Below the pieces are notes generated by a model that saw only the letters and a program-made list of their open reading frames with translations, was not told the DNA's origin and searched no databases. A stretch of 64,000 nucleotides of DNA from Neiella litorisoli (GTDB taxonomy: Bacteria; Pseudomonadota; Gammaproteobacteria; Enterobacterales; Neiellaceae): assembly GCF_014773395.1 (NCBI RefSeq), contig NZ_JACXAF010000005.1, positions 1 to 64,000 of the forward strand, read 5' to 3'. Positions 16,409 through 62,706 of this stretch are shown one piece after another (positions within the stretch are counted from its first letter, which is position 1; every line of letters starts with the position of its first letter). Position numbers and translations under genes: made by a program.

Positions 16409-17281
16409 ATGAGAAAACTGTTTCTAAGCGCGGTGCTTATTGCGCCACTTTGCGCTACTGCCCAAGTTGATTGGTACGCTGATCCTAATAAGCCCCTGAC
16501 AGACTCCTTTCGCCGTCTAGATCAAAACGCAGGTAGCTCAACAACCTGTGCTGATCAGACTGCAACATCGTCAAACCCAACTGTATCTCCTTATGGCAAG
16601 ATGTGGAAAATCGACAAACCTGTTGGTGCCCGAAGAGGAGAATATGCAAGAACAGAAGGCTTCATTCATCCAGAGGGCAGGGGGCGATTTTACGGGTGGC
16701 GCTTTCGAATTAATTCCAATCCTGATGCTGTGGATAAAGTGACCGTGTTTCAATGGAAAACGGCGATCGATAGTAATGGCACAAGTGGTACACAGAACTA
16801 CCCCATTAACATGGAATACGAGCATGGCACGCTGAAGTTGGAAGCTTTTGGCCCTTGTACAGACAGCAACGTGGCGAGCACCCCTCCCCTGTGCAGTAAT
16901 TACCCATCTCAAAGGAAAGTCACACTAAAATCAGTGCCTTTGCCGGAGTTTGGTTGGGGCGAGCTTGTCTTAAAAATTTTTAAAGATGACGACCCGAATG
17001 AAGGCTATGTAGAGTTCTACTACAACGGCGTTCAGCAAACATTATCCAACGGCAGCCCAACCGGTGATTTCAGAGTAACGTTTAAAAATGGCGACTACAA
17101 AAGAGCGTACTTGAGAACAAGTGATGGCGATGTTGGGCCACAAGATTCTAAAACCGAAAATATGTACCCCAAATGGGGAGTTTATAACCTCAATTCTTGT
17201 GGTTATGACGTCAACGTCTTTTTTGACGAAATGCGCGTCGGCAGATCATTTAATGATGTTGATCCATCTAATTATGATTAA
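16409..17281 (+). CDS. Secreted polysaccharide lyase-like beta-jelly-roll protein
   Basis: A 290-residue protein with an 18-residue signal peptide ending ATA, and a single beta-sandwich domain of the heparin-lyase-I/Polysacc_lyase (PF14099-like) type. Supporting segments are the opening DSFRRLDQ, YGWRFRIN, VTVFQWKT, YPINMEYEHG, the middle GWGELVLKIFKDDDPNEGYVEF, and the end YPKWGVYN...FFDEMRVG. Such proteins eliminate across uronic-acid linkages in glycans, but the substrate cannot be read here. It uses more AGA/CGA-type arginine codons than its neighbours, consistent with transfer. A possible operator lies 50 bp upstream. Confidence 0.65.
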   Translation: MRKLFLSAVLIAPLCATAQVDWYADPNKPLTDSFRRLDQNAGSSTTCADQTATSSNPTVSPYGKMWKIDKPVGARRGEYARTEGFIHPEGRGRFYGWRFRINSNPDAVDKVTVFQWKTAIDSNGTSGTQNYPINMEYEHGTLKLEAFGPCTDSNVASTPPLCSNYPSQRKVTLKSVPLPEFGWGELVLKIFKDDDPNEGYVEFYYNGVQQTLSNGSPTGDFRVTFKNGDYKRAYLRTSDGDVGPQDSKTENMYPKWGVYNLNSCGYDVNVFFDEMRVGRSFNDVDPSNYD

Positions 17282-45775: not shown

Positions 45776-46096
45776 TCAAACACGATACATCTCAGAAGAT
45801 ATGGCGTTGAAACTAAGGGGGGAGCTAGGCGTTTCAACCAAGACCTAGCTGCTGATGGTAAGTTCGATGAAGAAACAGTCATGAGCTTAAACCACAAAGA
45901 AGCTATTTTGTTTTTGATTGAGAATGCCGAAGACCTTTCTGTAACCCCTTTTGTGATAAGAAACTTGCAACAGCTCCTGTCGCAAGATTTACTCGCAAAT
46001 AGCGCTGCATGCGGTCAGCTCAGACAAATTGAAGTCAGCATTTCCAAGAACTTTCACATGCCGTTGAATGCGCCTTCCAATAACCAAAACAACTAA
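45776..46096 (+). pseudogene. Fic family protein internal fragment
   Basis: An open frame without a good start reads RYGVET...FDEETVMSLNHKEAILFLIENAEDL...IRNLQQLLSQDLLANSAACGQLRQIEVSI and ends PLNAPSNNQNN. The block LNHKEAI...NLxxLLSxxLLxxxxACGxLR is typical of the region before the active site of Fic AMP-transferases. The catalytic HxFx(D/E)GN motif is absent, so this is a truncated remnant. An ATG at 45881 could still start a 71-residue peptide. Confidence 0.65.
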
Positions 46097-46863
46097 TCAC
46101 CGACCGAGAAACCATATTTCCTAAGTATGTTCTGGTAATCACCCGTTCGCTTGAGGTGCATGGTTTGTTGATCGACAAGCTCAATAATATCAGGCATGTC
46201 AGCGATGTTCGGTGAACAAGCTAAATAGACGGGTTTTGCGGTGCCGACTTCCCGGATGAGCGAGATTTGCTGTTCAAGCCCTAGCTTTGCCAGTTTGTTT
46301 TTCATCACTGGCGGGCTCTCAATGATGATATTGATGCGCTGATGAAGCAGTTTGTGGATATTGGATTCCAACGGCGTGCTGCCGTGGACCGCGACGAATG
46401 TTGATGGGTGCGTTGCAATCATCTGGTTAAGCGCATCGTCACTGTAGGCGTAGCCTTTAATCACACCCACCTGATACTGCAACAGTTGGTCTAATTGATT
46501 GATTGTGGTGGTGCGATTAGACAGGCCATAAAGGCCTGTGCCGACCGACCCCCAATGGTGATTTGGCAATAAGAATCCCGGTACATCTTCGGGGTAAGCG
46601 CCAACAACACAGTCGAACTCGCCAGCCTCAACCGCAGAAACTGCCCGCTTCCAGGGGAGTAAATCGTAATCCACCGCGTAGCCATTGGGCTCGAAAACGG
46701 CTTTTGCCAACTCGATCATGACGCCTGGGTGTTGCGCATTAGGCTGCCCATTCAGCGGATACCATTCGTCAGCGCGGATGGTGATGGTTCTCGCTACGCT
46801 CGACGAGGCCACACAGGCAGTCAATAACATTGTCCATAACAGCCGAGTTGGCCAGCAATACAT
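46093..46863 (-). CDS. Periplasmic amino-acid-type solute-binding protein
   Basis: A 256-residue protein with a signal peptide (about 1-23) and a SBP_bac_3 domain: TITIRADEWYPLNGQPNAQHPGVMIELAKAVF, LPWKRAVSAVEAGEFDCVVGAYPED. No transporter genes are adjacent, so it may be an orphan sensor or a partner of an unlinked ABC system. The ATG at 46863 has GAGG. Its end overlaps the Fic remnant by four bases. Confidence 0.85.
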   Translation of the reverse strand: MYCWPTRLLWTMLLTACVASSSVARTITIRADEWYPLNGQPNAQHPGVMIELAKAVFEPNGYAVDYDLLPWKRAVSAVEAGEFDCVVGAYPEDVPGFLLPNHHWGSVGTGLYGLSNRTTTINQLDQLLQYQVGVIKGYAYSDDALNQMIATHPSTFVAVHGSTPLESNIHKLLHQRINIIIESPPVMKNKLAKLGLEQQISLIREVGTAKPVYLACSPNIADMPDIIELVDQQTMHLKRTGDYQNILRKYGFSVGD

Positions 46864-47199
46864 CAAAACAACCTCGGTAATGATTGAGCGGGTTATGTGC
46901 GATCAAGCGCATCGGGCAAAACGCCATAGTTCATCAGTGCGGCATAGTCACCTTGCTCCCTAGTTTAGACCACTCCAATCGCCCGCTTTAACGCGCTGTG
47001 TTGAAGTTGTTATTTTTGACTAGTTCTGATTGATGTCTTGTTGGTGAGGATGTGTCGACGATAACCTTTTTCGCTACTCGTTTAGTTAGTAAATCCCCTG
47101 TTTAATTTGCGGGTTTAAGAGGGTTGCAGGTTTGATTTTGAGGCCAGTGGTATTGATGGGGATCTCATTAAATAAATCAAATTAAGTAAAATGTAGTCA

Positions 47200-47280
47200 T
47201 AATGTTGCATGGTGGAGTCATGTGAAACAATAATGGGTCATACCAATTTTTGGCTCATTCTCTTGGCACATTGCAACATT
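47200..47280. repeat. Distant inverted repeat in the leader of the cupin gene
   Basis: AATGTTGCA (47200-47208) and TGCAACATT (47272-47280) are exact inverse copies 63 bp apart. They could bracket a leader structure or be two half-sites. The gap 46864-47385 (522 bp) otherwise holds no gene that I can support, only AT-rich promoter-like sequence. Confidence 0.4.
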
Positions 47281-47385
47281 TGGCTGTTGAGCTGGGCCCA
47301 TTTTTGAAATCGCGCTGATGGCGTCACAAGGTCGCACCCTTGGTTGGCGATTGCAGCTCTGACACTAATTAATGTAGGAAACATG

Positions 47386-48243
47386 ATGAACAAACGTACC
47401 TATCTAGCGGCTATTCTCTCAGCTTCGATGGTGGTTGGTGTTGCCCATGGGCATGGCAATTTGGCGGCGAAAGGCTATTCCTCGGGTTCTGCCGCAGCCG
47501 GCCAACAACAGGCTTTTGCTAGCAGTTCGGCTTACTTTATTGCTGATAATGTCGAATGGGAAGATGTTGGCTCAGGCATTAAACGTAAGATTTTGCCTTA
47601 TAGCGATGGTCTGATGGGCGTTGTGGTGAGCTTTGAAAAAGGCGCTGTTGGCGAGGTACATACTCATGATGTTCACGATCAATTGGCGACGATCATCAAA
47701 GGATCATTTGAAGTTGATGTGGGTGGCGTCAAGCACGTGGTCAAGCAAGGCGATTCGTTCTTAGCCGGGAAAGGCGTGCCGCACGGTGTCGTGGCATTAG
47801 AAGAAGATAGCCAAATCTTTGATACCTTTAATCCGCATCGGGCTAGCTTTGTTGGCTCAGGCGTAGAGCAAAAAGCGACTGGAAAGGCGGCCAAGCCTGT
47901 TAGCGCATTCTTTTTCGATAGCAAAAACGAGTGGGAATCGGTTGGCGATGGCATCACCCGCAAAATTCTGCCTTACACTGAAGGCATTATGGGGGTTCAA
48001 GTCAAGTTTGATAAAGGTGCCGTCGGCGCCGTTCATACCCATGACATTCATGATCAACTGGCAATCTGCTTGAAGGGGTCATTTGAAATTGACCTCAACG
48101 GTGTGAAAACCATCATCAAACAAGGCGATGCTTTCCTCGCACTGAAAGGCTCGCCACATGGTGTTGTTGCGCTGGAGCAAGACAGTATGTTGCTCGACAC
48201 CTTCAACCCATATCGAGCGGACTTTGTTGGCAAAAAGCAATAA
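47386..48243 (+). CDS. Secreted tandem KdgF-type cupin protein
   Basis: A 285-residue protein with a signal peptide (MNKRTYLAAILSASMVVGVAHG) and two cupin domains of about 110 residues that are clearly duplicates (both read RKILPY...GVV/GVQ...F-KGAVG-VHTHD-HDQLA...PHGVVALE). Each half resembles KdgF, the enzyme that linearises 4,5-unsaturated uronates from pectin or alginate. Metal ligands look complete in both: His92, His94, Gln99, His133 and His217, His219, Gln224, His258. Usual KdgF is a single, cytosolic domain of about 110 residues. The ATG at 47386 has AGGA six bases upstream. It converges on the GH78 gene. Activity is inferred. Confidence 0.82.
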   Translation: MNKRTYLAAILSASMVVGVAHGHGNLAAKGYSSGSAAAGQQQAFASSSAYFIADNVEWEDVGSGIKRKILPYSDGLMGVVVSFEKGAVGEVHTHDVHDQLATIIKGSFEVDVGGVKHVVKQGDSFLAGKGVPHGVVALEEDSQIFDTFNPHRASFVGSGVEQKATGKAAKPVSAFFFDSKNEWESVGDGITRKILPYTEGIMGVQVKFDKGAVGAVHTHDIHDQLAICLKGSFEIDLNGVKTIIKQGDAFLALKGSPHGVVALEQDSMLLDTFNPYRADFVGKKQ

Positions 48244-48269
48244 TGCTTGGTTTATCCTGCTGATCTGAC

Positions 48270-48302
48270 AAAAAGGGAAACTATGTTTAGTTTCCCTTTT
48301 TT
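48270..48302. terminator. Bidirectional terminator, cupin and GH78 genes
   Basis: AAAAGGGAAACTA-TGTT-TAGTTTCCCTTTT is a 13-bp perfect stem whose A and T ends serve both strands. It lies between convergent genes ending at 48243 and 48317. Confidence 0.9.
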
Positions 48303-48316
48303 CGTTGCGCTACTTA

Positions 48317-51160
48317 TCACTTCACTTGAATCCGGTATTGGCCCGGCCCAACTTGAATCGAGGTCGTTGCGGCGGTGGTGTTGAGCAGCGACATATCATC
48401 ACGTTTGAGCGCATCGGCTAATGAGAGTCCATTGACTTCAATCTGCTCGCCGAGTGAAATTTGCTTGCGCTGCGCTGAGTCGGCTAGCTGAGCCAACATC
48501 AGTTTGGGGATCTCAACCACGGCACTGGTATTGGGCGGAATGACAATTTCCATGATTAAACCGGTGTCGTTGCGCTGCCATTTGGAACCAATCAGGCCGT
48601 GTTTCGATTGATAAGAGCCCTCAGCAAAGTCGAGGTGTTCGGTGATTTGCGGAGCAATGCGGATCGACTGATAGCCTGCGGTTAACGGGCTAATGCCGAC
48701 CATGCGGTCATACAACCATTGGCCAATGGCGCCATAGGCGTAGTGATTCAGCGAACCGGCTTTTTTGGCATAACCGTTATCGTGGGTGTAACCATCCCAG
48801 CGCTCCCACATGGTGGTGGCACCTTGCGATACCGAGTACAACCAAGACGGGTAGCTTTGCTTAAAGACCAGTTCATAAGCCAGGTCGACTCGGTCGACTT
48901 TATCTAGCACAGGCGCGATAAGCGGTGTCCCTAAAAAGCCGGTGCGCAGGTGACCGCCAGCAGCATCGAACTGGGCTAACAAATGAGGAACTGCTTTGGT
49001 GGTGGTAGCCTCGTCCAGCAAATCAAAGCCGATAGCCAGCAAGTAGGCTGTTTGGGTTTGCTCCCCCACTTTGAGGCGGCCTTGCGGGCTGAAAAAGTGC
49101 TGCTGAAATGTTTGTTTCGCTTCGAGAAAGAGTTGTTGGTATTTTTGCCAATCTTGCTCTTTACCGAGCACCTTGGCGCTGCGCGCCAGTAAATCAAGAG
49201 AGCGGGCATAAAAGGCCGTTGAGATCAGGTTGTGATCGGTTTCGCCACGACGACTATCTTTGCGCTTGGAGTATGGTTGCAGCCAATCACCGACGGTCCA
49301 CATTTGGCTAATGCCGTCTTTCAGCTGACTTTGGTGATACACAATCCAGCGGCGCATCATGTCGTAGTTTTCCGCCAGAATTTGTCGGTCGCCGGTGCGC
49401 CAATAAACATCCCACGGAATGGTCACTGCCGCATCAGACCAACCAGCTTGGACGATTTCACCCACTTCATTGGGGACCACCACTGGGACGCCATGATTGT
49501 CGAATTGTTCTTCCCGAAGTGATTGCAACCAGGCCGCCCAGAACGCATGACTGTCGGCGATGTAGAGTGAAGTATTGGCAAAGGCGAGGGCATCGCCAGT
49601 CCAGCCCAAGCGCTCGGAGCGTTGTGGGCAGTCGGTTGGGATATCTAAAAAGTTACCTTTAAGGCCCCATTCAATGTTGGACTGCAATTGGTTTAATTGC
49701 TGGTTTGATGTGTTGAATGTGCCGGTTAGCTCAAAGTCGGTGTATTGCACCATGCCGGTAACCCAAGACGTATCCGGCGTTTGGCTGGCATCGAAACCAC
49801 TGAGTTCAACATAACGAAAACCATGGAAGGTAAAGGTAGGCTGCCATTCAATGATGCCATCTTGTTTGGCGGTGTAGAAATCAAGCTGCTTGGCGCTACC
49901 TAAGTTCTTGGTATAAAGCGAGCCATCAGGATTAATCCCCTCAGCAAAGCGCAAATTTAATGTCTCGCCTTTGCGCATGGGTACTTTAATAAGCGGCACG
50001 CCAACCATGTTCTGGCCCAGATCAAACACGGTTTTACCGGCAACCTGATGGACCGAAATCGCCGGCAGCTGCTGTTTGTTTTTGGAGGTGAAGTGGCGTT
50101 TGGGTTGCAGCAATATATCGGCATCCAGTGGCGAGGTTTTCACTGGTAACCAATCAGTGGCTTGGTAGCCGGCTTGATGCCAAGCGCCGCTGCTGTCAGT
50201 TAACTCGTAGTTGGCGTCATAGCGCTCGCCATCGTACAAACCCGAGGTGCGAATAGGACCATTTTGGCTGGCTTGCCATTGTTCGTCGCTCAGCACGATT
50301 TGCTGGCTACCATCGGTATATTCAATTTCCAGCTGAGCCAGCACTTTGGGCGTCAGTTCGAGCTTTTTATGCCAATGGCGTTTAGGGCCAAAGCGACCGG
50401 CATACCAGCCTTCGGCCAGACTAATGCCGATCGCATTTTGTCCCGTTTCGAGGGTATCGGTGACATCGTATGTCAGGGTTTCAATTCGTTTTTTGTATGG
50501 CGTGTAACCCGGTGTCAGAACGTCATCACCGACTCGTTTGCCATTAATGTAAGCCTCAAACACGCCCTTGGCGGTGATATACAAACGGGCTTGTGCAATC
50601 TCTTTCGCGCTTGAAAATTCCGTCCGTAAATACTGGGGAATATGAATCGGTGTTTTATAGCGATTGAGTTCAATTGGCTGTTGGCTGTCAATTTCAATCC
50701 ACTTGGCCTGCCAGTCCTGATTGCTGAGCAAGCCCAATTCAAATTGGCCAATTTCACTCCAATCGGAGGCCTTGCCTTGCTGATCCCAGTAGCGAACCTG
50801 CCAATAAACCTGCTGTCGCGAGTTGAGCGGCTGTCCTTGATAAGTGACAAAGGTAGTTTGGGAGCTACTCACGATGTTGCTGTCCCACAAATCAGCCTGT
50901 AAGGGCAGTAGTGACGGTTTGCTCGCGACGACGATTTGATACTTGCTTTGGGCTTTGACGGTGGTTGATGTCGGTAGTTGCCAAGAGAAGTTTGGCGCCG
51001 CATCGTAGAACCCGATTGGATTAACGAACCCTTGGTTGATGGTCAGTGCTTGTGGCGCTGGCGTGGCGCCAGTGGCCGATTCCCCAGCGGAGAATAGACT
51101 GCATGACTGGATCAGCAGCATAGTAGCAAGCAAGGTGAGTCGTTTGAGGTAATTTTGCAT
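48317..51160 (-). CDS. GH78 alpha-L-rhamnosidase, lipoprotein
   Basis: A 947-residue enzyme removing terminal alpha-L-rhamnose. The signal sequence ends LLIQSC, so a lipoprotein is likely. Order: two N-terminal beta domains (about 40-310, including ITAKGVFEAYINGKRVGDDVLTPGYTPY), then the (alpha/alpha)6 barrel with DCPQRSERLGWTGDA (acid region), GWSDAAVTIPWDVYWRTGD and TTMWERWDG, and a final beta domain. All are GH78 hallmarks. It follows the lyase gene at 101 bp in the same direction, so the pair is probably an operon. Confidence 0.93.
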   Translation of the reverse strand: MQNYLKRLTLLATMLLIQSCSLFSAGESATGATPAPQALTINQGFVNPIGFYDAAPNFSWQLPTSTTVKAQSKYQIVVASKPSLLPLQADLWDSNIVSSSQTTFVTYQGQPLNSRQQVYWQVRYWDQQGKASDWSEIGQFELGLLSNQDWQAKWIEIDSQQPIELNRYKTPIHIPQYLRTEFSSAKEIAQARLYITAKGVFEAYINGKRVGDDVLTPGYTPYKKRIETLTYDVTDTLETGQNAIGISLAEGWYAGRFGPKRHWHKKLELTPKVLAQLEIEYTDGSQQIVLSDEQWQASQNGPIRTSGLYDGERYDANYELTDSSGAWHQAGYQATDWLPVKTSPLDADILLQPKRHFTSKNKQQLPAISVHQVAGKTVFDLGQNMVGVPLIKVPMRKGETLNLRFAEGINPDGSLYTKNLGSAKQLDFYTAKQDGIIEWQPTFTFHGFRYVELSGFDASQTPDTSWVTGMVQYTDFELTGTFNTSNQQLNQLQSNIEWGLKGNFLDIPTDCPQRSERLGWTGDALAFANTSLYIADSHAFWAAWLQSLREEQFDNHGVPVVVPNEVGEIVQAGWSDAAVTIPWDVYWRTGDRQILAENYDMMRRWIVYHQSQLKDGISQMWTVGDWLQPYSKRKDSRRGETDHNLISTAFYARSLDLLARSAKVLGKEQDWQKYQQLFLEAKQTFQQHFFSPQGRLKVGEQTQTAYLLAIGFDLLDEATTTKAVPHLLAQFDAAGGHLRTGFLGTPLIAPVLDKVDRVDLAYELVFKQSYPSWLYSVSQGATTMWERWDGYTHDNGYAKKAGSLNHYAYGAIGQWLYDRMVGISPLTAGYQSIRIAPQITEHLDFAEGSYQSKHGLIGSKWQRNDTGLIMEIVIPPNTSAVVEIPKLMLAQLADSAQRKQISLGEQIEVNGLSLADALKRDDMSLLNTTAATTSIQVGPGQYRIQVK

Positions 51161-51261
51161 GAGGGGCCTTGTTCAATCTTACTCTGACAGCTTTGGCGTT
51201 ACGGGAAAATCAACGAAGTTGTTGCCGGGCTTTTGGGGAACACCGGCAACATCTTGCTTAG

Positions 51262-52191
51262 TTACATTGGCGGCTTACCTTGAGGAGCAACCGTTTGGTA
51301 GGTTGCCTTGGGGTGATCGCTCATTTTGATGGCATCAAGGTACAAGTAGTGGTCATTTTTCATGACGTCGAGATTGCCATTAAAGTACATGCCCCAAGAC
51401 GGGTAGATGCCTTTATCGTCGTTGTAGCCAAACTGAATGTTGTGCTGATCTAACACTTTGTTGCCGTCTATCCATAATTCCAGAAAGCCGGTTTTCGCTT
51501 CGGTATAGTCCACTTTGACGTGTAGAACAAAATCAACCCAGCGGTCGAGGTAGTCGCTCTTGGCACCCGGAATAACGAAATGTTCGGTGCCTTTGCCTTT
51601 GCGGGTGGTGCTAAGTTGGTCCGGATCCCACTTCCAGTTGCCGCGCATACCCTCAGGAGTGAGCGTCAAGCTAAACGGCGGGTTGCGCGATTTTTCTTTC
51701 AGCCGTTTGTCGGCACTGCCGTGGATTTGGAAGAACAGCCAGTTGTTTAACTCGTCTGCCGTGCCATCGCTTGGAAAGTAGAAGCTGAAACCAAACCAAG
51801 CTTCTGCGCCCATGACTTTTTTGGTTTTATAGCCGTGGAACATGGCTTTGCGATCAACGTTATCCAGCTTGTTTTTATCGCCATTGAATGCTGCTGGGTT
51901 GTCATGTTTCCATACCAGTTTCGCTGCATACTGACCATCGCGAACGACTTTATCTTCCAGCGCAAAAGCGTGGTTGCCTTGCAGTTGGTTGAACATGAAC
52001 TGTTTCTCAAGGCTTTCAATTAAGCCTGGGGTAAAGCCTCTCGGGCTTTGCGCGTTCCAGCCGCCACCTTCAAATGATTCATCAACTTTTAGGGTGGGTT
52101 CAGCCGCTGCTAAGCCACTGACGAGGGCCAGCGCAAGCGCTGCAACCATGGTTTTACTGCTACTCGAACAACCCTTTGTGAAAATTCCCAC
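51262..52191 (-). CDS. Secreted polysaccharide lyase (heparin-lyase-I-like fold)
   Basis: A 309-residue protein with a signal peptide and one beta-jelly-roll domain. EAWFGFSFYFPSDG, NNWLFFQIHG, FSLTLTPEGMRGNWKWD, WVDFVLHVKVDY and YPSWGMYFNG match the pattern of the Polysacc_lyase (PF14099-type) family, which includes PL13-like and PL20-like enzymes. A GTG at 52191, six bases after AGGAG, gives a good signal peptide and is preferred to a longer reading. Substrate unknown, but GH78, KdgF-type and GH2 neighbours point to a rhamnose- and uronate-containing glycan. It is divergent from the GH2 gene. Confidence 0.8.
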   Translation of the reverse strand: MGIFTKGCSSSSKTMVAALALALVSGLAAAEPTLKVDESFEGGGWNAQSPRGFTPGLIESLEKQFMFNQLQGNHAFALEDKVVRDGQYAAKLVWKHDNPAAFNGDKNKLDNVDRKAMFHGYKTKKVMGAEAWFGFSFYFPSDGTADELNNWLFFQIHGSADKRLKEKSRNPPFSLTLTPEGMRGNWKWDPDQLSTTRKGKGTEHFVIPGAKSDYLDRWVDFVLHVKVDYTEAKTGFLELWIDGNKVLDQHNIQFGYNDDKGIYPSWGMYFNGNLDVMKNDHYLYLDAIKMSDHPKATYQTVAPQGKPPM

Positions 52192-52285
52192 GTCTACTCC
52201 TGAGGTCGTGATTTTAATCTTGTTAGTAAGAAAAGGTGGCAAGCTGCGGAATTGATACCCCTACCGGCATTTTTTTGCGGGGGAC

Positions 52286-52307
52286 GGCAAATCACAATCG
52301 ATTTGCC
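52286..52307. promoter_or_regulatory. Inverted repeat in the lyase/GH2 divergent promoter
   Basis: GGCAAATC and GATTTGCC are perfect 8-bp arms separated by 6 bp, in the middle of the 304-bp divergent gap. It may be an operator shared by both genes. Confidence 0.45.
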
Positions 52308-52357
52308 CTGCTGAGAAACGATACGCGGCTCGGTTTTGATTGGTGAAAATAAAGTCA

Positions 52358-52371
52358 TTATTGTGCAATAA
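52358..52371. promoter_or_regulatory. TTATTGTGCAATAA palindrome
   Basis: Six-base arms TTATTG/CAATAA around TG, 125 bp before the GH2 start. A second candidate operator in the same divergent region. Confidence 0.4.
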
Positions 52372-52495
52372 GTCGAAATAATGGTCATTTAATGTCATTT
52401 ACAATCTTTTTTTGCCTTGTATATTAATAATAAAAGCCGTAGGCCTCCTCGCTTTGGGGCCAGATTTAACGCACCGCAACAAAAAGACACACAAA

Positions 52496-55400
52496 ATGAA
52501 GTCAGCGCAAACAACTCGATTGTTCTATCCATTAGCCGCTTTGCTAATGGTATTCATGGCCTGTTTATGGGTTACCACCGAAGCCCAAGCATCACCCGCC
52601 AGTGATGTGAGGCAACAAATCAATTTCAATCACGACTGGAAGTTTAAGTTGGGCGATGATGCCGCCTATCAAACTAAACAGCACAACGACAGCGGCTGGA
52701 CGGTACTGGATGTACCCCATGACTACATTTATGAAGAAGGTGTCAGTGAAAACGGCGCCCAAAAGCAGTTTGGCGGCTATCACGGCGGCGGTTTAGCTTG
52801 GTATCGCAAGCATTTTGCTTTTGATAACAAGTGGCAAGGCAAACAAGTTTTCTTGGTGTTTGACGGCGTCTACATGAACAGTGAGGTGTGGTTAAACGGC
52901 CAATATTTAGGAAAGCGGCCCTATGGTTATATTGGCTTTCAATACGACATCACCAAGCACTTAAATAGTGACAACAACGTCATTAGCTTGCGTGTCGATA
53001 ACGCCTTGCAACCGTCAGCTCGCTGGTATCACCCGGGTGGTATTTATGCGCCGGTGAAACTGGTTGTGGTCGACCCTGTCCATATCAAACAAAATTCGCT
53101 ATTTATTCATACCCCAGTAGTTGGCGCCAAAACTCAAGTGCAAACCTCGTTTGAGCTGAGCCAAGCGGTCAAGCAAGCTGAGCAATATGATGTGCGCTAC
53201 AAGGTGACCGATCAGCAAGGTGCCGAGGTTGCCGCAGGCCGTTCAACGCTAGCCCAGCTTAACCAAGATGGTAAATACGGATTCAACGTTGAGCTGCTCA
53301 ATCCCACTCGCTGGAATCCGCATGACGCCTACTTGTACAACTTGAGCGTTGAACTGCTTCACAAAGGCAAGGTTATCGACGCCGATAACAGTAACTTTGG
53401 TGTTCGAGAAATTGCCTGGAAAACCGACACTGGTTTTTGGATTAATGGCAACAATGTCAAGATCCAAGGGGTCGCAGAGCATTACGAGGGCGGCCCTGTG
53501 GGCGGCGCTTGGACCAAGCCACTATTGCGCTGGAAATTGCAATTGCTCAAAGACATGGGCGTCAATGCCATCCGTGTTGGTCATAACCCTTATCCACCGA
53601 TGTTTTACGATCTGTGTGATGAGTTAGGTTTGATGGTGATGGATGAAGTGTTTGATGGCTGGACCCAAAAAGCACGTCATGATTACGGTGCTTATCACTT
53701 TGATGAATGGTGGAAAACCGATTTAGAAGAATGGGTTACTCGAAACCGCAATCACCCATCCATTATTATTTACAGTGTGGGTAATGAAACCCATGGCGAC
53801 ATTGCGCCTGAGTTGGTGAAAGCCGTGAAGGAGTTTGATCCAACCCGCTTGGTCACTTCAGGTTCAACCAACAAAGAAGGCATGGATGTCATTGGCATCA
53901 ATGGCGGTTCTGAAAATGTCAGCTTCTTTGAGCGCCGTTTCGACCGACCATTTATCTCTACTGAGGCGCCGCATACTTGGCAGACTCGTGGTTACTACCG
54001 CACGCAAACTTGGTGGCGTGATGGTCCGCGCAAGGACACCTTTGAACTGCCTAGCCTGACCGACAACGAAATCTTCTTCTATGAGTGGCAAGATCCAAAA
54101 GATTGGCTGAATCAAAAGCAACACCTCAACTCATCTTATGACAATGCCACAGTGCGTATTAGTGCCCGCAAAAACTGGGAAATGGCCCGTGACTTGCCGC
54201 ATCACTCCGGCCACTTCCGCTGGACTGGTTTTGACTACCATGGTGAAGCGGGCTTGGCCCACGGTGGCTGGCCATTTATTGCCTTTATGGGCGGCGCACT
54301 AGACTTAGCAGGCTTTAAGAAGGACTTGTTCCACTTCTACCGTAGTCAATGGTTGACGGAGCCTTCGTTACACATTTTGCCAAGCTGGACTCACCCAACC
54401 ATGGCAAAAGGTACCGAAATTCCAGTGTGGGTTTACTCCAACTTGGATGAAGTTGAACTGTTCCTCAATGGCAAATCTCTGGGTCGTGATAAACCTGGCC
54501 TGAAAGCCGAAGAAATGCAGTGCGAATGGTTAGTGCCATGGCAACCGGGCACCCTCACTGCGATTGGCTACAAGAACGGTGAAAAGGTTCTGGAGCAAAC
54601 GCTAAATACCGCCGGTGCGCCGGTAGCGCTGAAGCATCAGGTCGAAACCTTTGAAGCGGAAGCGGGCTTTGATCGCGCTAAGGTAATCACCTCTGAAGCG
54701 GTTGATCAGAGTAACGAGTTCTACCCATATGCGAGTCATAACGTCTATTACCACTTCACCGATGGCGTTAAAGTCAAAGCCCTAGAAAACGGTTCGCCAG
54801 TCGAACACGCCAATCGTGTTCATGCAGGCTACCGCCCGTTGTTCATGGGCAAAACTCGCGCCTTTGTCGAGGTGAAATACCCGCAAGCGGCAGAGTATGC
54901 CTTTGTCGGAGCGATTGTTGGCGACGAAGCGCTACGGCTCTCCGATCAGGCTAGCATTGATGTGCAAGTAGTGCCGTTGACCGACCGTGCGCTGTATCAA
55001 AAACAAAAAGTCGATGTGTTCTACGCCATCAATGATGCTTACAGCACCAAGATGCAACGCTACAGCAAGCCATTTACGGTGAAAAATGGCGATACCGTTT
55101 ATGCCCGAGTTGTGGTTGAAGGCAAGGTGGTATTGACCATGCAGCAGAACTTTGGTGATGGCGCAGGCCTGTTCTGGGGCGATGAAAACTCCGCCAATAT
55201 GTGGATTGGTCGCGGCATTTCGATTCAAGGTGAAGCGGCTGAATTTACTGGTGGCGAAGCGGTTACCAATGCCCATGGTGTTCATGGTGGCGGTTATTCA
55301 ACCTTCAATAACCAAGAAGGAAAGCTGTACTGGTACCACGAAAACGATGGCGATGAAGGCGTCTATACTGCCGAGATCCGTTATACCCACAATGATCCAA

Positions 55401-55594
55401 AATCGAAACGACCACTGGCGATTTACATCAACAACGAGTTGGCCAATACCGTGGAGTTTGAGTCGACCGGTAGCTGGGATAGCAAGTGGGGCGCGACTAA
55501 GGTTAAGTTCACTTTAGTGAAAGGTGCCAACAACATCGAATTCCGAACCATGGGAGAAAGCGGTCCGAATATCGACCAGTTCACGCTGGATTAG
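52496..55594 (+). CDS. Secreted GH2 family glycosidase with C-terminal extension
   Basis: A 1032-residue enzyme with a signal peptide (about 1-32, ending AQA). Order: sugar-binding domain (WKFKLGDDAAYQTKQHNDSGWTVLDVPHD), Ig-like domain, catalytic barrel, then a DUF4982-like domain (VWVYSNLDEVELFLNGKSLG) and a C-terminal beta domain resembling CBM35 or CBM6 (about 890-1032, FEAEA-type and VYTAEIRY). Candidate acid/base is Glu431 in VGNETHG, candidate nucleophile Glu490 in FISTEAPHTW. GH2 covers beta-galactosidases, beta-glucuronidases and mannosidases, and the activity here is open. It is divergent from the lyase gene. Confidence 0.9.
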   Translation: MKSAQTTRLFYPLAALLMVFMACLWVTTEAQASPASDVRQQINFNHDWKFKLGDDAAYQTKQHNDSGWTVLDVPHDYIYEEGVSENGAQKQFGGYHGGGLAWYRKHFAFDNKWQGKQVFLVFDGVYMNSEVWLNGQYLGKRPYGYIGFQYDITKHLNSDNNVISLRVDNALQPSARWYHPGGIYAPVKLVVVDPVHIKQNSLFIHTPVVGAKTQVQTSFELSQAVKQAEQYDVRYKVTDQQGAEVAAGRSTLAQLNQDGKYGFNVELLNPTRWNPHDAYLYNLSVELLHKGKVIDADNSNFGVREIAWKTDTGFWINGNNVKIQGVAEHYEGGPVGGAWTKPLLRWKLQLLKDMGVNAIRVGHNPYPPMFYDLCDELGLMVMDEVFDGWTQKARHDYGAYHFDEWWKTDLEEWVTRNRNHPSIIIYSVGNETHGDIAPELVKAVKEFDPTRLVTSGSTNKEGMDVIGINGGSENVSFFERRFDRPFISTEAPHTWQTRGYYRTQTWWRDGPRKDTFELPSLTDNEIFFYEWQDPKDWLNQKQHLNSSYDNATVRISARKNWEMARDLPHHSGHFRWTGFDYHGEAGLAHGGWPFIAFMGGALDLAGFKKDLFHFYRSQWLTEPSLHILPSWTHPTMAKGTEIPVWVYSNLDEVELFLNGKSLGRDKPGLKAEEMQCEWLVPWQPGTLTAIGYKNGEKVLEQTLNTAGAPVALKHQVETFEAEAGFDRAKVITSEAVDQSNEFYPYASHNVYYHFTDGVKVKALENGSPVEHANRVHAGYRPLFMGKTRAFVEVKYPQAAEYAFVGAIVGDEALRLSDQASIDVQVVPLTDRALYQKQKVDVFYAINDAYSTKMQRYSKPFTVKNGDTVYARVVVEGKVVLTMQQNFGDGAGLFWGDENSANMWIGRGISIQGEAAEFTGGEAVTNAHGVHGGGYSTFNNQEGKLYWYHENDGDEGVYTAEIRYTHNDPKSKRPLAIYINNELANTVEFESTGSWDSKWGATKVKFTLVKGANNIEFRTMGESGPNIDQFTLD

Positions 55595-55622
55595 TGTGGA
55601 ACCTCTGCGCATCATAAGCAAT

Positions 55623-55650
55623 TCAACCACCGCATTTATGCGGTGGTTGA
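55623..55650 (+). terminator. Hairpin after the GH2 gene
   Basis: TCAACCACCGCAT and ATGCGGTGGTTGA form a perfect 13-bp stem with a 2-nt spacer, 28 bp after the stop codon. The following T content is modest (TGATTTT), so it is a moderate terminator. Confidence 0.65.
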
Positions 55651-55810
55651 TGATTTTCCCTGAATAGCTAAACGGACTCTCCTGTTTGTCTCATTATTCA
55701 GAACAGTTCATACCAACAACGAATATATTTCGATCAGATTTTGTCAACTATCATTAACTCATCTTCATAACCAATCAAATTTTTAAATCGAAACGAAGAG
55801 GGCTCTATCC

Positions 55811-56374
55811 ATGACAGTTTTTGACAATATGAAATCTAAACTTGGCGTACTCATTCTTGTTGCTGGCGCTTTTTGCTCGGGCTCAGCACTGGCCAGCGAT
55901 CAGCAAAACGTGGTGACGCAAGTGACCGATAAAATGCAGCTGCAGTGGCAGGATTGGCATGAGTACGTTGATATTCGAGAAAACTATGATGAAACTCCGC
56001 CGTCGTTTCGCCAGCGAGTATTTAAGAGCCTAGGCGATAACATCGCAGAGAATGCGGAAAAGCTGCCGCAAGGTTATATCTTACAGCTGTTAGTTGTCGA
56101 CTTAGATTTAGCGGGTGATGCCAGCGCCAAGACTCAGGCTGGCGTGTTAGGTGTTCGTGTCTTTGACCAAGGCTTTGCGCCGGCAATTAGTTTCAAGTTC
56201 GCGGTATTAGATGCTGACGGCAAAGTGGTATTGGATGGCTCGGAGCAGTTAAGAAACCGCAATTTCCTCAACGGCCGCGGTTCAATGCGCTTTGACCATG
56301 ACCGACTCGCTTACGACAAAGAGCTGATTAACACTTGGTTCAGCAAGCAGGTGTTGCCTGCTGTCAGTCAATAG
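55811..56374 (+). CDS. DUF3016 domain exported protein
   Basis: A 187-residue protein with a signal peptide (about 1-29, ending ALA) and a DUF3016 domain. The segments VQW..DWHEYVDIRENYDETPPSFRQRVFKSL and LQLLVVDLDLAGD match it. The family is common in Alteromonadales and its function is unknown. It is a single gene, convergent with the photolyase gene. Confidence 0.8.
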   Translation: MTVFDNMKSKLGVLILVAGAFCSGSALASDQQNVVTQVTDKMQLQWQDWHEYVDIRENYDETPPSFRQRVFKSLGDNIAENAEKLPQGYILQLLVVDLDLAGDASAKTQAGVLGVRVFDQGFAPAISFKFAVLDADGKVVLDGSEQLRNRNFLNGRGSMRFDHDRLAYDKELINTWFSKQVLPAVSQ

Positions 56375-56396
56375 TCGGACCTTTATTTCGGTACCG

Positions 56397-57857
56397 TCAT
56401 TTAGGAACAACGTGTCGGCTGATAATACGCTCAGCCTCCTGTTTGACATCAACCCGGTTGCGCCAAGACCACAGGCGTTGCCGGGCTACCTTGCCGGTTT
56501 GCTGCAGATCGACCACAGGTAACGGATAATCTCTCCCCAATTCAATACCGTACAGCTGTTGTTCCATGGCCGATAATGTCCATGGCTCAAACAACAGAGG
56601 CACCGGCACCTCGCGCAATTCAGGTAACCATTGATAAATAAAATCACCGCGCGGATCTTTCTCGCTCGCCTGTCGAGTGGGGTTGTAAATTCGAATGGTG
56701 TGAATACCTGTGACGCCCGCTTGCATTTGAAATTGCGGATAGTGAATGCCTGGCTCGAAGTCGAGAAACAGTCTCGCCAAGTGAGTCACGCCGAGTCGCC
56801 AATCAATATTCAGGTGGTGACACAAGAAGCTCACTAACATGGCACGCATGCGAAAATTGACATAACCGGTAGCGTGCAAGCAGCGCATGCTAGCATCCAC
56901 CAATGGATAGCCAGTTTGGCCTTGTTGCCAAGCATCTAGCAAAGATTGGGTGGCGTCGTCTTGCAAAGAGCGATAGGGGTAGGTGAGATACGCGCGATTA
57001 AAGTGGCGATGCTCAATCGCCGATTCTGATTCGAATTTTTGAATAAAGTGGCAGTGCCAGTGCAAGCGCGATGTCAGCGCCGATAACGCTTTGCGCCAGC
57101 CTTTTCGATTCCAGTCGGCCAATACCCGCTGATAGACTTGTCGTATTGAGATATTTCCCCAAGCAAGGTAGGGCGAGAGCCTAGAGCATGTTTGTTGTGC
57201 CATCGCTGGGGCCGATATTCCGAGGTGATATTTTTGTCCTCGACTAGCAAGAAAGTCTGCCATGGTGGCCCAAGCTTGCTGTTCCCCGCCGAGTTGTTGT
57301 TGCTCATCGGCGACAATCCAATTGGCTGGTGGACTCATCAATGACAGCACCGTGGTATTTATTAGTTGCAGGTCAACCGGCGTGGGCAGCGTTGGCGCTT
57401 TCATTTGTTGGTACCAGTTTTTTTGCCATTGTTTGCGGTTACAGGCTCCTCGGATCACTGCGCCATTAGCTGGTTCAAGCCAAGTTACGCCATGGTGTTT
57501 GCACCAAGTTTTAACCGCTTTGTCCCGCTGATAAGTGACATCTAAGCCGACTTCTTGATGGCTGATAATTTGTTTGATGTTGTAGTGTTGGCTGAGCTGG
57601 TGAAAGATGTCGGTGACTTCGCCCAAGGCGCAATGAATGCGTGACTCGAGTTTGCGCAACTGGCGGTTTAAGTCCATTAGAGACTGCCAGACAAAACGCC
57701 AATGGCGGCTGCTGTAATGGGGATCATCGAGTAGTTCCGGTTCGAAAATATAAACCAGCAGGGTGGGTAATTGGTGCTGTTGTGCGGTGTGTAGCACCGG
57801 ATTATCAGCCAGCCTCAAATCCCGCTTGAACCAAACGATCTGGATGTCTTGCTTCAC
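56397..57857 (-). CDS. Photolyase/cryptochrome family protein
   Basis: A 486-residue flavoprotein with the N-terminal alpha/beta antenna domain ([16 protein letters not shown]) and the helical FAD domain ([49 protein letters not shown]). Photolyases repair UV pyrimidine dimers with blue light. Several features suggest a subclass of the cryptochrome-like proteins rather than E. coli-type PhrB, so activity is not certain. A GTG start is used. Confidence 0.85.
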
Positions 57858-58976: not shown

Positions 58977-60209
58977 ATGGTTTGGCAATCACTATTGCTG
59001 GTGAGCATGTTGCTATGGTCGGGCTCGGTGCAATCGGCTCCGTTGGAGCAGCAAGCATCGGCCCACGTTGATCAGCTGTTAGCATTTCATACTGCTCACC
59101 CAGTTAACTGGCAACAACATCCGCAAGCGGTTGCTTACTTCTCCGAGTTGGATAATCAAGGTAAACCCATTTCCGATAAAGTCTATACCGTGGCATTAAG
59201 CCGGTTGATTTACGGCCTTGCCTATCAATCAGCAGATAATCCGGCCAATCTCGCTAAAGCCAAAGCGGCGGCGTCGTTCCAATTGCAACACATGCTTGGC
59301 GAGGATCGTCACGGCCAGTATTTTTTGTCATGGGTGAGTGAATCAGGGCAAGACAACAGTACGCGGCTAGATATCTGGCAGCAATCCTATGGTTTGTGTG
59401 GCTTAGTTGAGTTGTATCGGCAAACTGGCGATCAACAATTACTGCAAACCATTCATCGCTTACACGAAGCACTCGTCAGCCGTTTTCAAGATCAGCAATA
59501 CGGTGGTTTTTGGGGCGCTTATGAGCTGATTGACGGACCTGAGAAAGGCTCTAAATCACTGCAATCCTTGATGTATCCGGTGACCGCCTATTTAGCCAAT
59601 TTGTGGCTGGCCGATGCAGCCAATCGAGCATCTTACCAAGCGATTTTGCAACAGCACATTGAGCTGCTGGCTCAGATCGGCTGGAATCAGCAACAGCAGT
59701 GGGTCAATGTGGAGTTTGACGATCAGTGGCAGCCGTGTGAAAGCACCGAGGAGGCTGTTTGCAGTGCAGTCAGTCCCGGACACAATTTTCAGCTCGCGGC
59801 ATTGTTGCTCCGAGCATCTGATTGGCCATTCATCGGCGCCTCACAACAGCTGCAATTGCGAAGCCGAGGCGATCGGATTATTACGGCAACGCTAGCCAAG
59901 CCTATCTACGGCCAAAATGGCATTGCTGGTGGTTTTGCTCGGTCTTTCGAGCCACTGAGTAATGAGGTTGTGGATTCAAGGAAGGCCTGGTGGCAGCACT
60001 GCGAAGCAATTATCGCGTTGAGCTTACTGCCAGCACAACGGGCGAATCGAGATCTGTTGTTGGCGTTCTTTTTGGCCCACTTTCAGGACCAACAATTCGG
60101 TGGTGAATACTTTTTTGTTGACGCGGATAATCAGCCAGTGACAAAGGAGCTAAAAGGCAGCATTGGCAAGTCGGCTTATCATTCGGTGGAAATGGTACGT
60201 TTTTTATGA
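58977..60209 (+). CDS. Secreted AGE-fold protein with altered active site
   Basis: A 410-residue protein with a signal peptide (about 1-20) and an (alpha/alpha)6 barrel of the N-acylglucosamine 2-epimerase/cellobiose epimerase type: SQGDQQ-type helices, WQQSYGLCGLVELYR, PGHNFQLAALLLR, AWWQHCEAI and a terminal KSAYHSVEMV. In known AGE enzymes a GHxxE motif and a His in an LHxLEAY motif take part in catalysis. Here His269 and the last His402 remain, but the Glu is Gln272 and the LHxLEAY His is Tyr200. It is normally a cytosolic family, so export is unusual. An epimerase, isomerase, lyase or glycan-binding role is open. Confidence 0.7.
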   Translation: MVWQSLLLVSMLLWSGSVQSAPLEQQASAHVDQLLAFHTAHPVNWQQHPQAVAYFSELDNQGKPISDKVYTVALSRLIYGLAYQSADNPANLAKAKAAASFQLQHMLGEDRHGQYFLSWVSESGQDNSTRLDIWQQSYGLCGLVELYRQTGDQQLLQTIHRLHEALVSRFQDQQYGGFWGAYELIDGPEKGSKSLQSLMYPVTAYLANLWLADAANRASYQAILQQHIELLAQIGWNQQQQWVNVEFDDQWQPCESTEEAVCSAVSPGHNFQLAALLLRASDWPFIGASQQLQLRSRGDRIITATLAKPIYGQNGIAGGFARSFEPLSNEVVDSRKAWWQHCEAIIALSLLPAQRANRDLLLAFFLAHFQDQQFGGEYFFVDADNQPVTKELKGSIGKSAYHSVEMVRFL

Positions 60210-60258: not shown

Positions 60259-62706
60259 TTACTTAGGTACGACTTGCAATAACAGGACGCCCTCAGATTC
60301 CAGTTCAAACGAAGTCTGCACTGGGTTGCTGGTCATTAGATCGGTCATCGACGCAATGTCGCCATCAATCAGAGACAAGTCCAACTTCGCCGTGTCATGG
60401 CCAAGGTTGAAGATGTTGACCAAGTAGCTGCCATCGGCTTGCTTCACCGAGCGCCAGTGTGTGGTTTTGAACGGCTTGCCATTGTCTTCGGCAATGGTCA
60501 CCGCAGGCATGCTGTCAGCAATTTCTGCCATTGCCACATCTTTGATTGCGGCGATATCAGAACCTTCTGGCATCACAATCAACTTACCTTTGCTAGCTGC
60601 CAGTTTGTCGGTGCGCGGCTGACCGTACTCATTCATCGACAAGCTGTATTCTGAATCGACAATCACCGTGCCGCCTTGATTCAAGAAGCTTTGCAGGGCA
60701 GCAAATTCGCTATCTTTAACATAGGGGTTGTTGTAAACCACCACAGTGTCCCATTTGCTGTTGTCTTGTTTCTCAATGATGTTCTGAGTGACAAAGCCCA
60801 TTGGAAAGCCTTCAAAGAAGAACTGCTCGTAAAACTCAAAACCTTTGGTCATGTAATCTTTGGTGTTGATTGCCGTTGTCTCTGAGTAGAACAAACGCAG
60901 TGGTCGTTGTTGTTCACGCAGGGCAATAATTTCTTCTGAGAAGCTGTTGAGGTCATACATCACCTGAGTCACTTCATTAGTGACGTGTGGCTGCATGTTG
61001 TTAGAGCCAGCATACGCCCCGCCTAAGCCTGGATCGAAGAAGTCGAGTTCACCTTCTAAACGATCTTCTGGTGAGCCATCTGGATCGCGAGCCCAGAACC
61101 AGCCCATGTTGGCATCCATACCTTGTAGCGTTGCTAACCAGTAAACGTTACGGATATAGCTGGTGCGAGTATCGAGATCGCGCCATTGGCCTGATGATAG
61201 AAAGTGAGATTCCGAGTTGATGTTGATTTTCTCTGGTGCGACCGACTCCATGAAATCATGGAACATGCCAACGCCATCCCACTTATAAGCGTACTTTTTC
61301 AGCCACTCATTGGACTTACCTGGGCGGATGTTCGCGCTGCCGAAGGCTTTAGCATCGTGACCAACCATGGTGGTTAGCTCGGCCAATGCCTCAACATCAA
61401 TACCGCCGGAGCGAGAGTTATACATAAACATCCGCGGCATGACTTTGATGTGGGTATCGGCATCTGGGTTCACTGCGTGCAGCTCGTTTTGCATGAAGGT
61501 GAACCAATCAGTACCACGGTCCATGTTGTAGCGCATCCAGTCATACCAAATTGGCTTGCCCTGCAACGCGGTGTTCATTGGGATCTCAACTTCAACCTTA
61601 TCGAAGCTGGCGAACGAGGTACCCCAGTTGGCATTCAAGGTAGCCAGATCGCCTTGGTATTTGTTGTCCAACCAAGTTTGGAATTTAGCCAAGGTGTATG
61701 AGGAAATTTCATTCATTTCCTTAAAGTTATAGGTCCAGTGGCCTTTTTCTGAATACCAGTGCGGTTCGTTGGCCAGAACAAAACCAAGTTCGGTCACTTT
61801 TTTGCCTTTGGTCAGTTCGCCGGTGTGACGAATGATGCGGCTCCACAGGTCGCGAGCCGTTGGGTTATCGACGTCGAAGCCAGTAAACAAGGAGCGGCCT
61901 TTGCGCACTTCTGGCTCTAGCGCCTCAACCCACTCTGGAATACCCATGATCCAATACACCAAGAAACCAATGTTGGTGTCCGGAATATCAGTTAAGTTTT
62001 TGAGTAAATCTTCATCCCAAGTGCCGTCTTCTTTGATCAGGAAGGAGTTGATAGCGCGGTCATGATCCACTTCGTACAAGTGCTCACCGCCATGGTAGAG
62101 GGCACCCAAGTGGTCGTTGTAAATATCTTTATTGGTCAGCGGTTGGCCAACTGTTTTAGAGAAGTAGTCATACGGGAAAATTGGCTTACCGTTGCTGATA
62201 AACATGTTGTCAGCGGCTTTGGTGTTTTGCCAATCAACCTTATTAACTGGGCGACGTTTGATCTCACCGGCCAATTCTTTGCCTAGTTCAACAATACCTT
62301 TATCAAGGATCTCGATGACTTTGGTGCGCTCAAAATCGGGTAATTCGGCAGCTAAACGCTCTTTGTCATCGGCATAATAGCGCTCATAGCCAAAGGCCAT
62401 TTCAATAGCTTTGGGGTTGGCTTCATCCCAATTGGCAAACTTCAGAAACTGCTCGGAAAACCACATGATGGTTTCTTCACGGGCAACATCAATACCTTTT
62501 GAGCGTGCGTCATCCATCATTCCTGCGAGCTTATCCATCTTGGCACGAGCTTCCTGCTCGAGCGGACTGACCGCGACTGCGGCAATTGGCGCTGCCGCTT
62601 GTTCGTTCACGGCAACGGTTTTGGTCGCGGGGCTATCTTGTTCTGAGCAGGCAGTTGCCAGCAAAACTAAAGGAGTGAGTGCTGCTCCTAAAAGGTGGCG
62701 TTTCAT
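60259..62706 (-). CDS. GH42-like clan GH-A glycosidase, lipoprotein
   Basis: An 815-residue secreted protein with a lipoprotein-like signal (LLATAC). The central TIM barrel shows GH42-like blocks: VLANEPHW with candidate acid/base Glu314, FQTWLDNKYQGDLATLNANWGTSFASFDKV, and NINSESHFL with candidate nucleophile Glu499. The C-terminal part contains a beta-galactosidase trimerisation-like (GATase-fold) region at about 600-710 (WDTVVVYNNPYV, FLNQGGTVIVDSEYS). The N-terminal 150 residues are unlike canonical GH42. Likely exo-acting on galactose-containing algal glycans; the family number is uncertain. AGAGAAG precedes the ATG. Confidence 0.75.
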   Translation of the reverse strand: MKRHLLGAALTPLVLLATACSEQDSPATKTVAVNEQAAAPIAAVAVSPLEQEARAKMDKLAGMMDDARSKGIDVAREETIMWFSEQFLKFANWDEANPKAIEMAFGYERYYADDKERLAAELPDFERTKVIEILDKGIVELGKELAGEIKRRPVNKVDWQNTKAADNMFISNGKPIFPYDYFSKTVGQPLTNKDIYNDHLGALYHGGEHLYEVDHDRAINSFLIKEDGTWDEDLLKNLTDIPDTNIGFLVYWIMGIPEWVEALEPEVRKGRSLFTGFDVDNPTARDLWSRIIRHTGELTKGKKVTELGFVLANEPHWYSEKGHWTYNFKEMNEISSYTLAKFQTWLDNKYQGDLATLNANWGTSFASFDKVEVEIPMNTALQGKPIWYDWMRYNMDRGTDWFTFMQNELHAVNPDADTHIKVMPRMFMYNSRSGGIDVEALAELTTMVGHDAKAFGSANIRPGKSNEWLKKYAYKWDGVGMFHDFMESVAPEKININSESHFLSSGQWRDLDTRTSYIRNVYWLATLQGMDANMGWFWARDPDGSPEDRLEGELDFFDPGLGGAYAGSNNMQPHVTNEVTQVMYDLNSFSEEIIALREQQRPLRLFYSETTAINTKDYMTKGFEFYEQFFFEGFPMGFVTQNIIEKQDNSKWDTVVVYNNPYVKDSEFAALQSFLNQGGTVIVDSEYSLSMNEYGQPRTDKLAASKGKLIVMPEGSDIAAIKDVAMAEIADSMPAVTIAEDNGKPFKTTHWRSVKQADGSYLVNIFNLGHDTAKLDLSLIDGDIASMTDLMTSNPVQTSFELESEGVLLLQVVPK

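Follow-up and report, generated by a model that had tools for sequence, protein, structure and literature searches.

The gene at positions 47386..48243 (+) of the window, the 64,000-nucleotide stretch of DNA analyzed here, encodes a 285-residue protein in which two KdgF-type cupin domains lie in tandem behind a signal-peptide-like N-terminus. Our preferred reading, to which we assign a probability of about 0.5, is that this bicupin is an exported, covalently fused KdgF that would open 4,5-unsaturated monouronates before their uptake. The fold and the active-site residues are known ones; relative to the literature searched, the architecture is new and the cellular address probably so.

The reading frame and its N-terminus

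The open reading frame runs from an ATG at 47386 to a TAA at 48243 with no stop or frameshift between them. A second ATG is found at 47383, immediately 5' of the first, and the two are preceded by a Shine–Dalgarno-like AGGA. The first 22 residues, MNKRTYLAAILSASMVVGVAHG (47386..47451, +), have a charged start and a hydrophobic core and run into HG at an A-H-G site; by eye, this segment resembles a Sec-type signal peptide, and inspection revealed neither a lipobox nor a twin-arginine motif within it. A Ser/Ala/Gly/Gln-rich stretch separates the N-terminus from the first cupin domain.

The best 12-residue stretch within the first 35 residues of the cupin has a hydropathy of 2.18. Among 45 single-domain relatives the maximum is 1.58 when each is started at the Met nearest to its domain, a choice that removes the upstream sequence of these control rows. 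When upstream Mets are allowed, five of the 45 genome-derived relatives carry a Met that precedes the match by 18 residues or more, whereas the remaining 40 have no in-frame Met at such a distance when only ATG is considered. Two of these five (L011 and L012) reach 1.98 and 2.02 from upstream Mets, in what is probably non-coding sequence. The hydropathy control is therefore not clean. An earlier note on this DNA had proposed a signal peptide, and this agrees with the signal-like N-terminus seen by eye and with the hydropathy of 2.18, for which the control is weak; as judged from its N-terminus, export of the cupin is likely.

Two diverged domains with conserved active-site residues

Alignment and the blocks of the AlphaFold2 model described below place the first KdgF domain at residues ~46–157 (47521..47856, +) and the second at residues ~172–285 (47899..48240, +). 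The linker between them (residues 158–171; 47857..47898, +) is outside both cupin alignments and within a stretch of low pLDDT (residues 152–180). The two halves are identical at 75 of 110 positions (68%), a figure that corrects the near-duplicates of the earlier note; the fusion of two KdgF-type domains that it claimed stands. Identity between the halves is 71, 82 and 39% at codon positions 1, 2 and 3, respectively, which indicates an old duplication under protein-level constraint; because third-position identity is only 39%, the synonymous positions appear largely randomized while the protein has been kept. The same value makes an assembly artefact or a recent duplication unlikely. Half 1 is the more diverged of the two, with a branch of 0.42 versus 0.20 for half 2.

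The metal ligands of KdgF have been described as three His and one Gln, accompanied by a catalytic Asp/Phe/Arg set in which the Asp serves as acid/base (PMC11381880). In the alignment, the His/His/Gln/His ligands correspond to H92/H94/Q99/H133 in half 1 and H217/H219/Q224/H258 in half 2, confirming the earlier claim that all four are kept in both halves, and they are also present in 45 of 45 single-domain relatives. The catalytic set, which the earlier note did not mention, is D146/F148/R152 in half 1 and D271/F273/R277 in half 2, with both halves matching Asp100, Phe102 and Arg106 of YeKdgF. These alignments support the view that both active sites are intact at the level of sequence.

Four columns that are at least 93% identical in the 45 single-domain relatives differ in one or both halves. 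Two of these form a Tyr-Val pair (Tyr54-Val55) located just past the Gln ligand, which is present in all 45 single-domain KdgFs of this first panel and lost in both halves of the bicupin, with T102-I103 in half 1 and I227-C228 in half 2 taking its place. The other two changes are confined to half 1, where a conserved Leu has become I144 and a conserved Asp has become S154. The Tyr-Val pair recurs in eight of ten further relatives; of the other two, one has replaced the Tyr with Phe and one the Val with Ile. The pair is thus close to invariant in the family without being fully so; it is a conservation pattern drawn from the present analysis rather than a published defining feature of KdgF. Strand alternation would point the Tyr outward and the Val inward, and an outward Tyr may therefore concern a dimer contact rather than the pocket.

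Relationship to characterized KdgF enzymes

Pfam assigns two stretches of the protein to Cupin_2 (E 1.4e-23). The best relatives by sequence in the PDB are 5fpx, 5fpz and 5fq0 (E 5e-34 to 2e-28), followed by 7zyb; of these, 5FPX is YeKdgF from Yersinia enterocolitica, 5FQ0 is HaKdgF from Halomonas and 7ZYB is BeKdgF (PMC11381880). The earlier note had held that the proposed role would fail if the closest characterized relatives were non-uronate cupins, and the nearest one is instead a KdgF (E 5e-34). Other bicupin families were considered and set aside because the scores fall far short of the family cut-offs, with 48.6 of 254.2 bits for the TIGR03404 oxalate decarboxylases and 30.4 of 140 for NF049940. 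Five single-domain relatives, which come from Shewanella, Vibrio and enterics associated with plants or insects, share 50–56% identity with each half.

In a midpoint-rooted tree of 47 rows, for which the program warns of long branches, the two cupin halves are sisters (support 99/99) and fall inside a 34-row clade together with YeKdgF and HaKdgF (support 99/97). Their position beside Yersinia-like enterics within this clade is weaker (85/70), and the stem branch that the two halves share is long, at 0.76 changes per column. These comparisons support a KdgF ancestry for the bicupin. The second KdgF of the same genome, a 106-residue protein encoded on another contig (C23), groups in the tree's other clade.

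Predicted structure of the bicupin

AlphaFold2 returned a pLDDT of 36 when run without an alignment, and a mean pLDDT of 68.5 with a pTM of 0.68 when given an eight-row alignment. The other rows of this alignment all fall on half 1, and half 2 was therefore modeled almost without aligned relatives. By blocks, pLDDT is 74–94 over residues 51–150 of half 1, and 79–93 over residues 181–270 and 62 over residues 271–280 of half 2; values below 50 are found at residues 1–48, 152–180 and 277–285. The model thus contains two confident cupins except at the C-terminal end of each half, and the catalytic residues R152 and R277 are in poorly modeled stretches because they lie within the last two of these low-scoring ranges.

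When the whole model was compared with known structures using VIA-align, the top six matches had Z scores of 22.7–22.1 over 213–221 residues at 2.8–3.2 Å. The whole-model fold matches are bicupins, among them BacB, DR1152, EF2996 and YlbA, and the two halves are predicted to pack as an ordinary bicupin, which makes an intramolecular pseudo-dimer plausible. BacB and YlbA share this predicted arrangement with the window protein (Z about 22), yet are only 14–17% identical to it. Bicupins of the BacB/YlbA type carry out a chemistry different from that of KdgF. No KdgF chain is among the top 50 matches listed for either fold search, but the searches favor two-domain chains and this absence is therefore no evidence against a KdgF. 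Replacement of a homodimer by a fusion is reasonable given that BeKdgF is 93.5% dimer in solution (PMC11381880).

Distribution of the tandem form

Genome searches with the window protein covered overlapping sets, each count taking in the protein's own genome. Matches were found in 41 of the 197 relatives examined (E≤1e-10), 33 of 394 genomes of the order (E≤1e-25), one of 369 genomes of the class (E≤1e-25) and 41 of 398 genomes of the phylum (E≤1e-15). No second tandem KdgF appears among the matches listed for these 197, 394, 369 and 398 genomes, with the proviso that distant KdgFs in tandem could have been missed at the E≤1e-25 limit used for the order and the class; the sequences actually read were those of the 45 relatives and ten more. 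Among the matches listed, the genome of the window is the only one with a match along both domains. In two genomes (G026 and G916) the query range of the match spans both domains, but the match is 312 bases long and corresponds to a single domain. The two other genomes of the genus have no cupin match at E≤1e-10.

Eight regions with long open frames were considered as candidate fused or exported KdgFs and, on reading, proved to hold single KdgF domains; re-reading of the frames shortened them from 860 to 115 residues in G107, from 271 to 152 in G1072, from 268 to 132 in G860 and from 177 to 145 in G193. Among plasmids, 336 of 72,556 records match, all at less than 60% identity. Twenty of the 336 were inspected, each match being 315–420 bases long, and the tandem form is absent from these 20. 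Three of 50,697 phage records match, each over approximately one domain, and the viral collection contains no relatives of the neighboring lyase or of the KdgF alignment.

Neighboring genes and their ulvan-linked homologues

Upstream of the cupin gene and divergent to it is a gene for a family-3 solute-binding-like protein (46093..46866, −; PF00497, E 6.1e-08). Downstream and convergent is a GH78 alpha-L-rhamnosidase gene (48317..51160, −; Pfam Bac_rhamnosid6H, 4e-106) whose product has, by eye, a lipoprotein-like N-terminus. This is followed on the same strand by a PF14099 lyase gene (51262..52242, −), identified by Pfam and by its plasmid homologues, with a signal-like stretch near the N-terminus of the product (by eye), and then by a divergent GH2 glycosidase gene (52412..55594, +), identified by Pfam and by a 71%-identical homologue on the plasmid pAlt76. 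The lyase and the rhamnosidase that the earlier note placed beside the cupin are thus both present. No operon ties the cupin to its neighbors because its gene stands alone between divergent and convergent genes. No TonB-dependent-receptor-like frame was seen by eye among those at 46–56 kb. After the GH2 gene, at 55623–55650, is a hairpin with a perfect 12-bp stem, found on both strands.

An inverted pair, AATGTTGCA, is located upstream of the cupin gene (47201..47280), its arms spanning 47201–47214 and 47267–47280, and may be an operator. Its 9-mer has only two exact copies in the window, with 1.56 expected by chance, and is absent from the two stretches of contig C34 that were searched. No KdgR-like site was found at the cupin, and the window as a whole contains 14 matches to the KdgR motif versus 14.79 expected by chance.

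The lyase has homologues in two records of the plasmid collection, both Alteromonadaceae plasmids, from Catenovulum adriaticum (80%) and Alteromonas sp. 76-1 (76%). The plasmid of the latter, pAlt76, has been linked to growth on ulvan (PMC6431674). On pAlt76, as in the window, the lyase and the GH2 glycosidase are adjacent, and this common pair constitutes homology to a known ulvan locus; the plasmid annotation also includes GH78, GH88 and BNR_4 proteins and sulfatases. The plasmid differs from the window in two respects: a BNR_4 domain is joined to its lyase domain, and no KdgF-type cupin is found at 14–77 kb. The window GH78 is 70% identical to a Catenovulum adriaticum plasmid protein and 44.6–46.2% identical to proteins on pAlt76. 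Within the genome collections the lyase is rare: apart from the window's own genome, none of the 197 relatives has a match (E≤1e-10), and among the 394 genomes of the order there is one other (G271, 71%). There a homologue of the GH78 accompanies it, as do sulfatase-like and glycosidase-like genes recognized by eye.

We consider the window cluster to be best read as ulvan-linked. BNR_4, the domain of PL24/25-type ulvan lyases, has no match on the window's contig. The cupin itself has no match in the 14–77 kb region of pAlt76, in the 40.8 kb stretch of the Catenovulum plasmid or in the 33.5 kb stretch of G271 that surrounds the lyase, and so does not belong to a conserved core of the sets examined.

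Uronate genes elsewhere in the genome

The genome has ten BNR_4 matches, distributed over contigs C1, C2, C15 and C34 and in some cases representing pieces of one frame, and four Glyco_hydro_88 matches. On C34, two Glyco_hydro_88 proteins and a BNR_4 protein have lipobox-like N-termini by eye, and the same locus contains a further BNR_4 protein, a sulfatase, a short-chain dehydrogenase, a KdgT permease (PF03812, 1.7e-111) and, by eye, a TonB-dependent-receptor-like gene. This C34 locus is of the ulvan type and combines GH88/105 enzymes that look like lipoproteins with a KdgT permease; enzymes for the extracytoplasmic production or release of unsaturated uronates thus seem to be present in this genome.

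The C23 locus encodes alginate-lyase-type and Heparinase-II/III-type enzymes, the single KdgF of 106 residues and a PF14099 lyase, along with two KduD-like genes and an IclR-type regulator recognized by eye. Neither the KdgF nor the Heparinase-II/III-type (oligoalginate-lyase-like) enzyme has a signal visible by eye, and both have a cytoplasmic look. The ordinary cytoplasmic KdgF step therefore appears to have a gene of its own, and the exported KdgF is not the sole copy. A KdgR-like site, with one mismatch to the motif, is found upstream of a kduD-like gene (10585 of L040); the number of matches in L040 (C23) is five versus 4.39 expected.

Two further proteins relate to these families. At 16409–17281 (+), the window encodes a second PF14099 protein, 36% identical to that of C23. 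Contig C43 contains an 859-residue open reading frame (L071, 6845–9424, −) that is an apparent fusion, with NCBIfam matches to a BT3233-family part (210–462) and a BglB-like part (523–810) and a Glyco_hydro_88 match within the latter.

A model for the bicupin and its alternatives

In the reading we prefer, a kdgF of the YeKdgF-containing clade would have been duplicated in tandem, acquired a Sec signal peptide and diverged. The product would be secreted to the periplasm or beyond, where its two cupin domains may pack as a pseudo-dimer that substitutes for the KdgF homodimer, each half holding a divalent metal through His/His/Gln/His and using the Asp as general acid/base together with the Phe and Arg. 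Exported lyases, perhaps the PF14099 enzymes, would free 4,5-unsaturated monouronates, and the bicupin would open these while the cells grow on polysaccharides of algae; the most likely source is ulvan or glucuronan, with alginate as a possible one. The linear 5-keto-4-deoxyuronate would then be imported by the KdgT of the ulvan-type locus or by another carrier and join the cytoplasmic KduD route. More tentative, and held with distinctly less confidence, is the specific idea of an extracytoplasmic branch in which KdgF acts outside the cytoplasm as a covalent dimer and KdgT imports the linear keto-acid and not the unsaturated sugars. In older Erwinia work, KdgT reportedly carries 5-keto-4-deoxyuronate; the passages of PMC7814964 consulted contain no confirmation of this transport.

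The ulvan context weakens this simple story. GH105 enzymes are said to release the linear product (DKI) directly and without KdgF (PMC7953866), so a GH105 route has no need of one, and free unsaturated monouronate also opens spontaneously (PMC11381880). No exported exolyase that would supply the free monomer was identified in the genome, and its oligouronate-lyase-like enzyme looks cytoplasmic by eye and has the ordinary single KdgF close by. The length of the stem branch, the lack of a cupin on the plasmid and G271 stretches and in the two other genomes of the genus (E≤1e-10), the lack of a KdgR-like site or an operon at the cupin, and a signal peptide recognized by eye with a weak hydropathy control also count against an exported KdgF. 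Because of the GH105 route, the spontaneous opening, the missing exolyase and the loss of Tyr-Val, we stop at even odds for the exported KdgF and regard as doubtful, but worth serious attention, the alternative of an exported KdgF-fold enzyme that has kept the metal and the Asp/Phe/Arg while its pocket or surface shifted toward another sugar acid in place of the classical free monouronate, e.g. an oligosaccharide with an unsaturated non-reducing end or what GH88/105 enzymes release. A changed substrate would fit the loss in both halves of a pair present in all 45 single-domain relatives, the stem branch of 0.76 and the ulvan-type neighbors, whose described routes need no KdgF. However, all seven KdgF catalysis-linked residues are unchanged in both halves, and the Tyr should, by strand alternation, point out of the barrel, so that its replacement may have affected a dimer contact and not the pocket.

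Retention of these residues also bears on the unlikely case of a KdgF descendant that has become an exported, non-catalytic bicupin that would bind or store sugar acids or metals in the periplasm. One of the whole-length fold matches is indeed MncA, the title of whose entry links the bound metal to the place of folding, and half 1 evolves faster than half 2 and has S154 where a further Asp is conserved, but binding has no need of the catalytic Asp/Phe/Arg, and these are kept in both halves. We think it quite improbable that the gene is a decaying or neutral extra copy with an acquired signal-like N-terminus and no present function: the tandem form is confined to one genome among the matches listed and the two other genomes of the genus lack a match, as a decaying copy might predict, whereas the frame contains neither a stop nor a frameshift, its codon positions are under constraint and all seven functional residues are present in both halves.

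Comparison with known KdgF systems

YeKdgF and HaKdgF resemble the window halves in having a cupin domain with His/His/Gln/His and Asp/Phe/Arg, but their chains are single domains of 110–114 residues, whereas the window protein is a tandem with a signal-like N-terminus and lacks Tyr-Val. BeKdgF from Bacteroides eggerthii (7ZYB/7ZYC) carries the same residues as the bicupin, with the same proposed mechanism, and is again a single domain; it is mainly a dimer in solution and works with a PL17 enzyme bearing a signal peptide, and no signal peptide is tabulated for BeKdgF itself (PMC11381880). In the schemes of two papers, on Vibrio sp. C42 and Roseihalotalea, KdgF acts in the cytoplasm. The portion of the literature that was searched contains no description of a KdgF that is exported or in tandem.

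If our preferred reading of an exported, fused KdgF is true, at least one bacterium linearizes uronates before uptake, and a step in the digestion of algal sugar acids by a seaweed-degrading bacterium may occur outside the cytoplasm. This would bear on the cargo of transporters and on the intermediates that leak to neighbors. The bicupin would also provide a natural tethered KdgF in which the importance of each half and of particular residues could be compared.

Other features of the window

The interval that separates gcvP from a photolyase-like gene (46000–56400 in the window) has a different cargo in G002, a related genome, where by eye it comprises an AraC-like regulator, an iron-type alcohol dehydrogenase, a glycyl radical enzyme with its activase and a peptidase. 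This interval therefore looks like a variable site of gene gain. At 58977–60209 (+), the window encodes an AGE-type protein (GlcNAc 2-epimerase family) with a signal-like N-terminus by eye, which scores far under the cut-offs of named epimerases; near the photolyase-like gene of G002, a stretch of 175 residues is 71% identical to it. The gene at 60259–62706 (−) encodes an 815-residue, lipoprotein-like enzyme (by eye) that is matched by neither Pfam nor NCBIfam at E≤0.001 but strongly resembles the GH167 glycoside hydrolase structure 9whd (7.8e-146) and 6ptm (6e-149).
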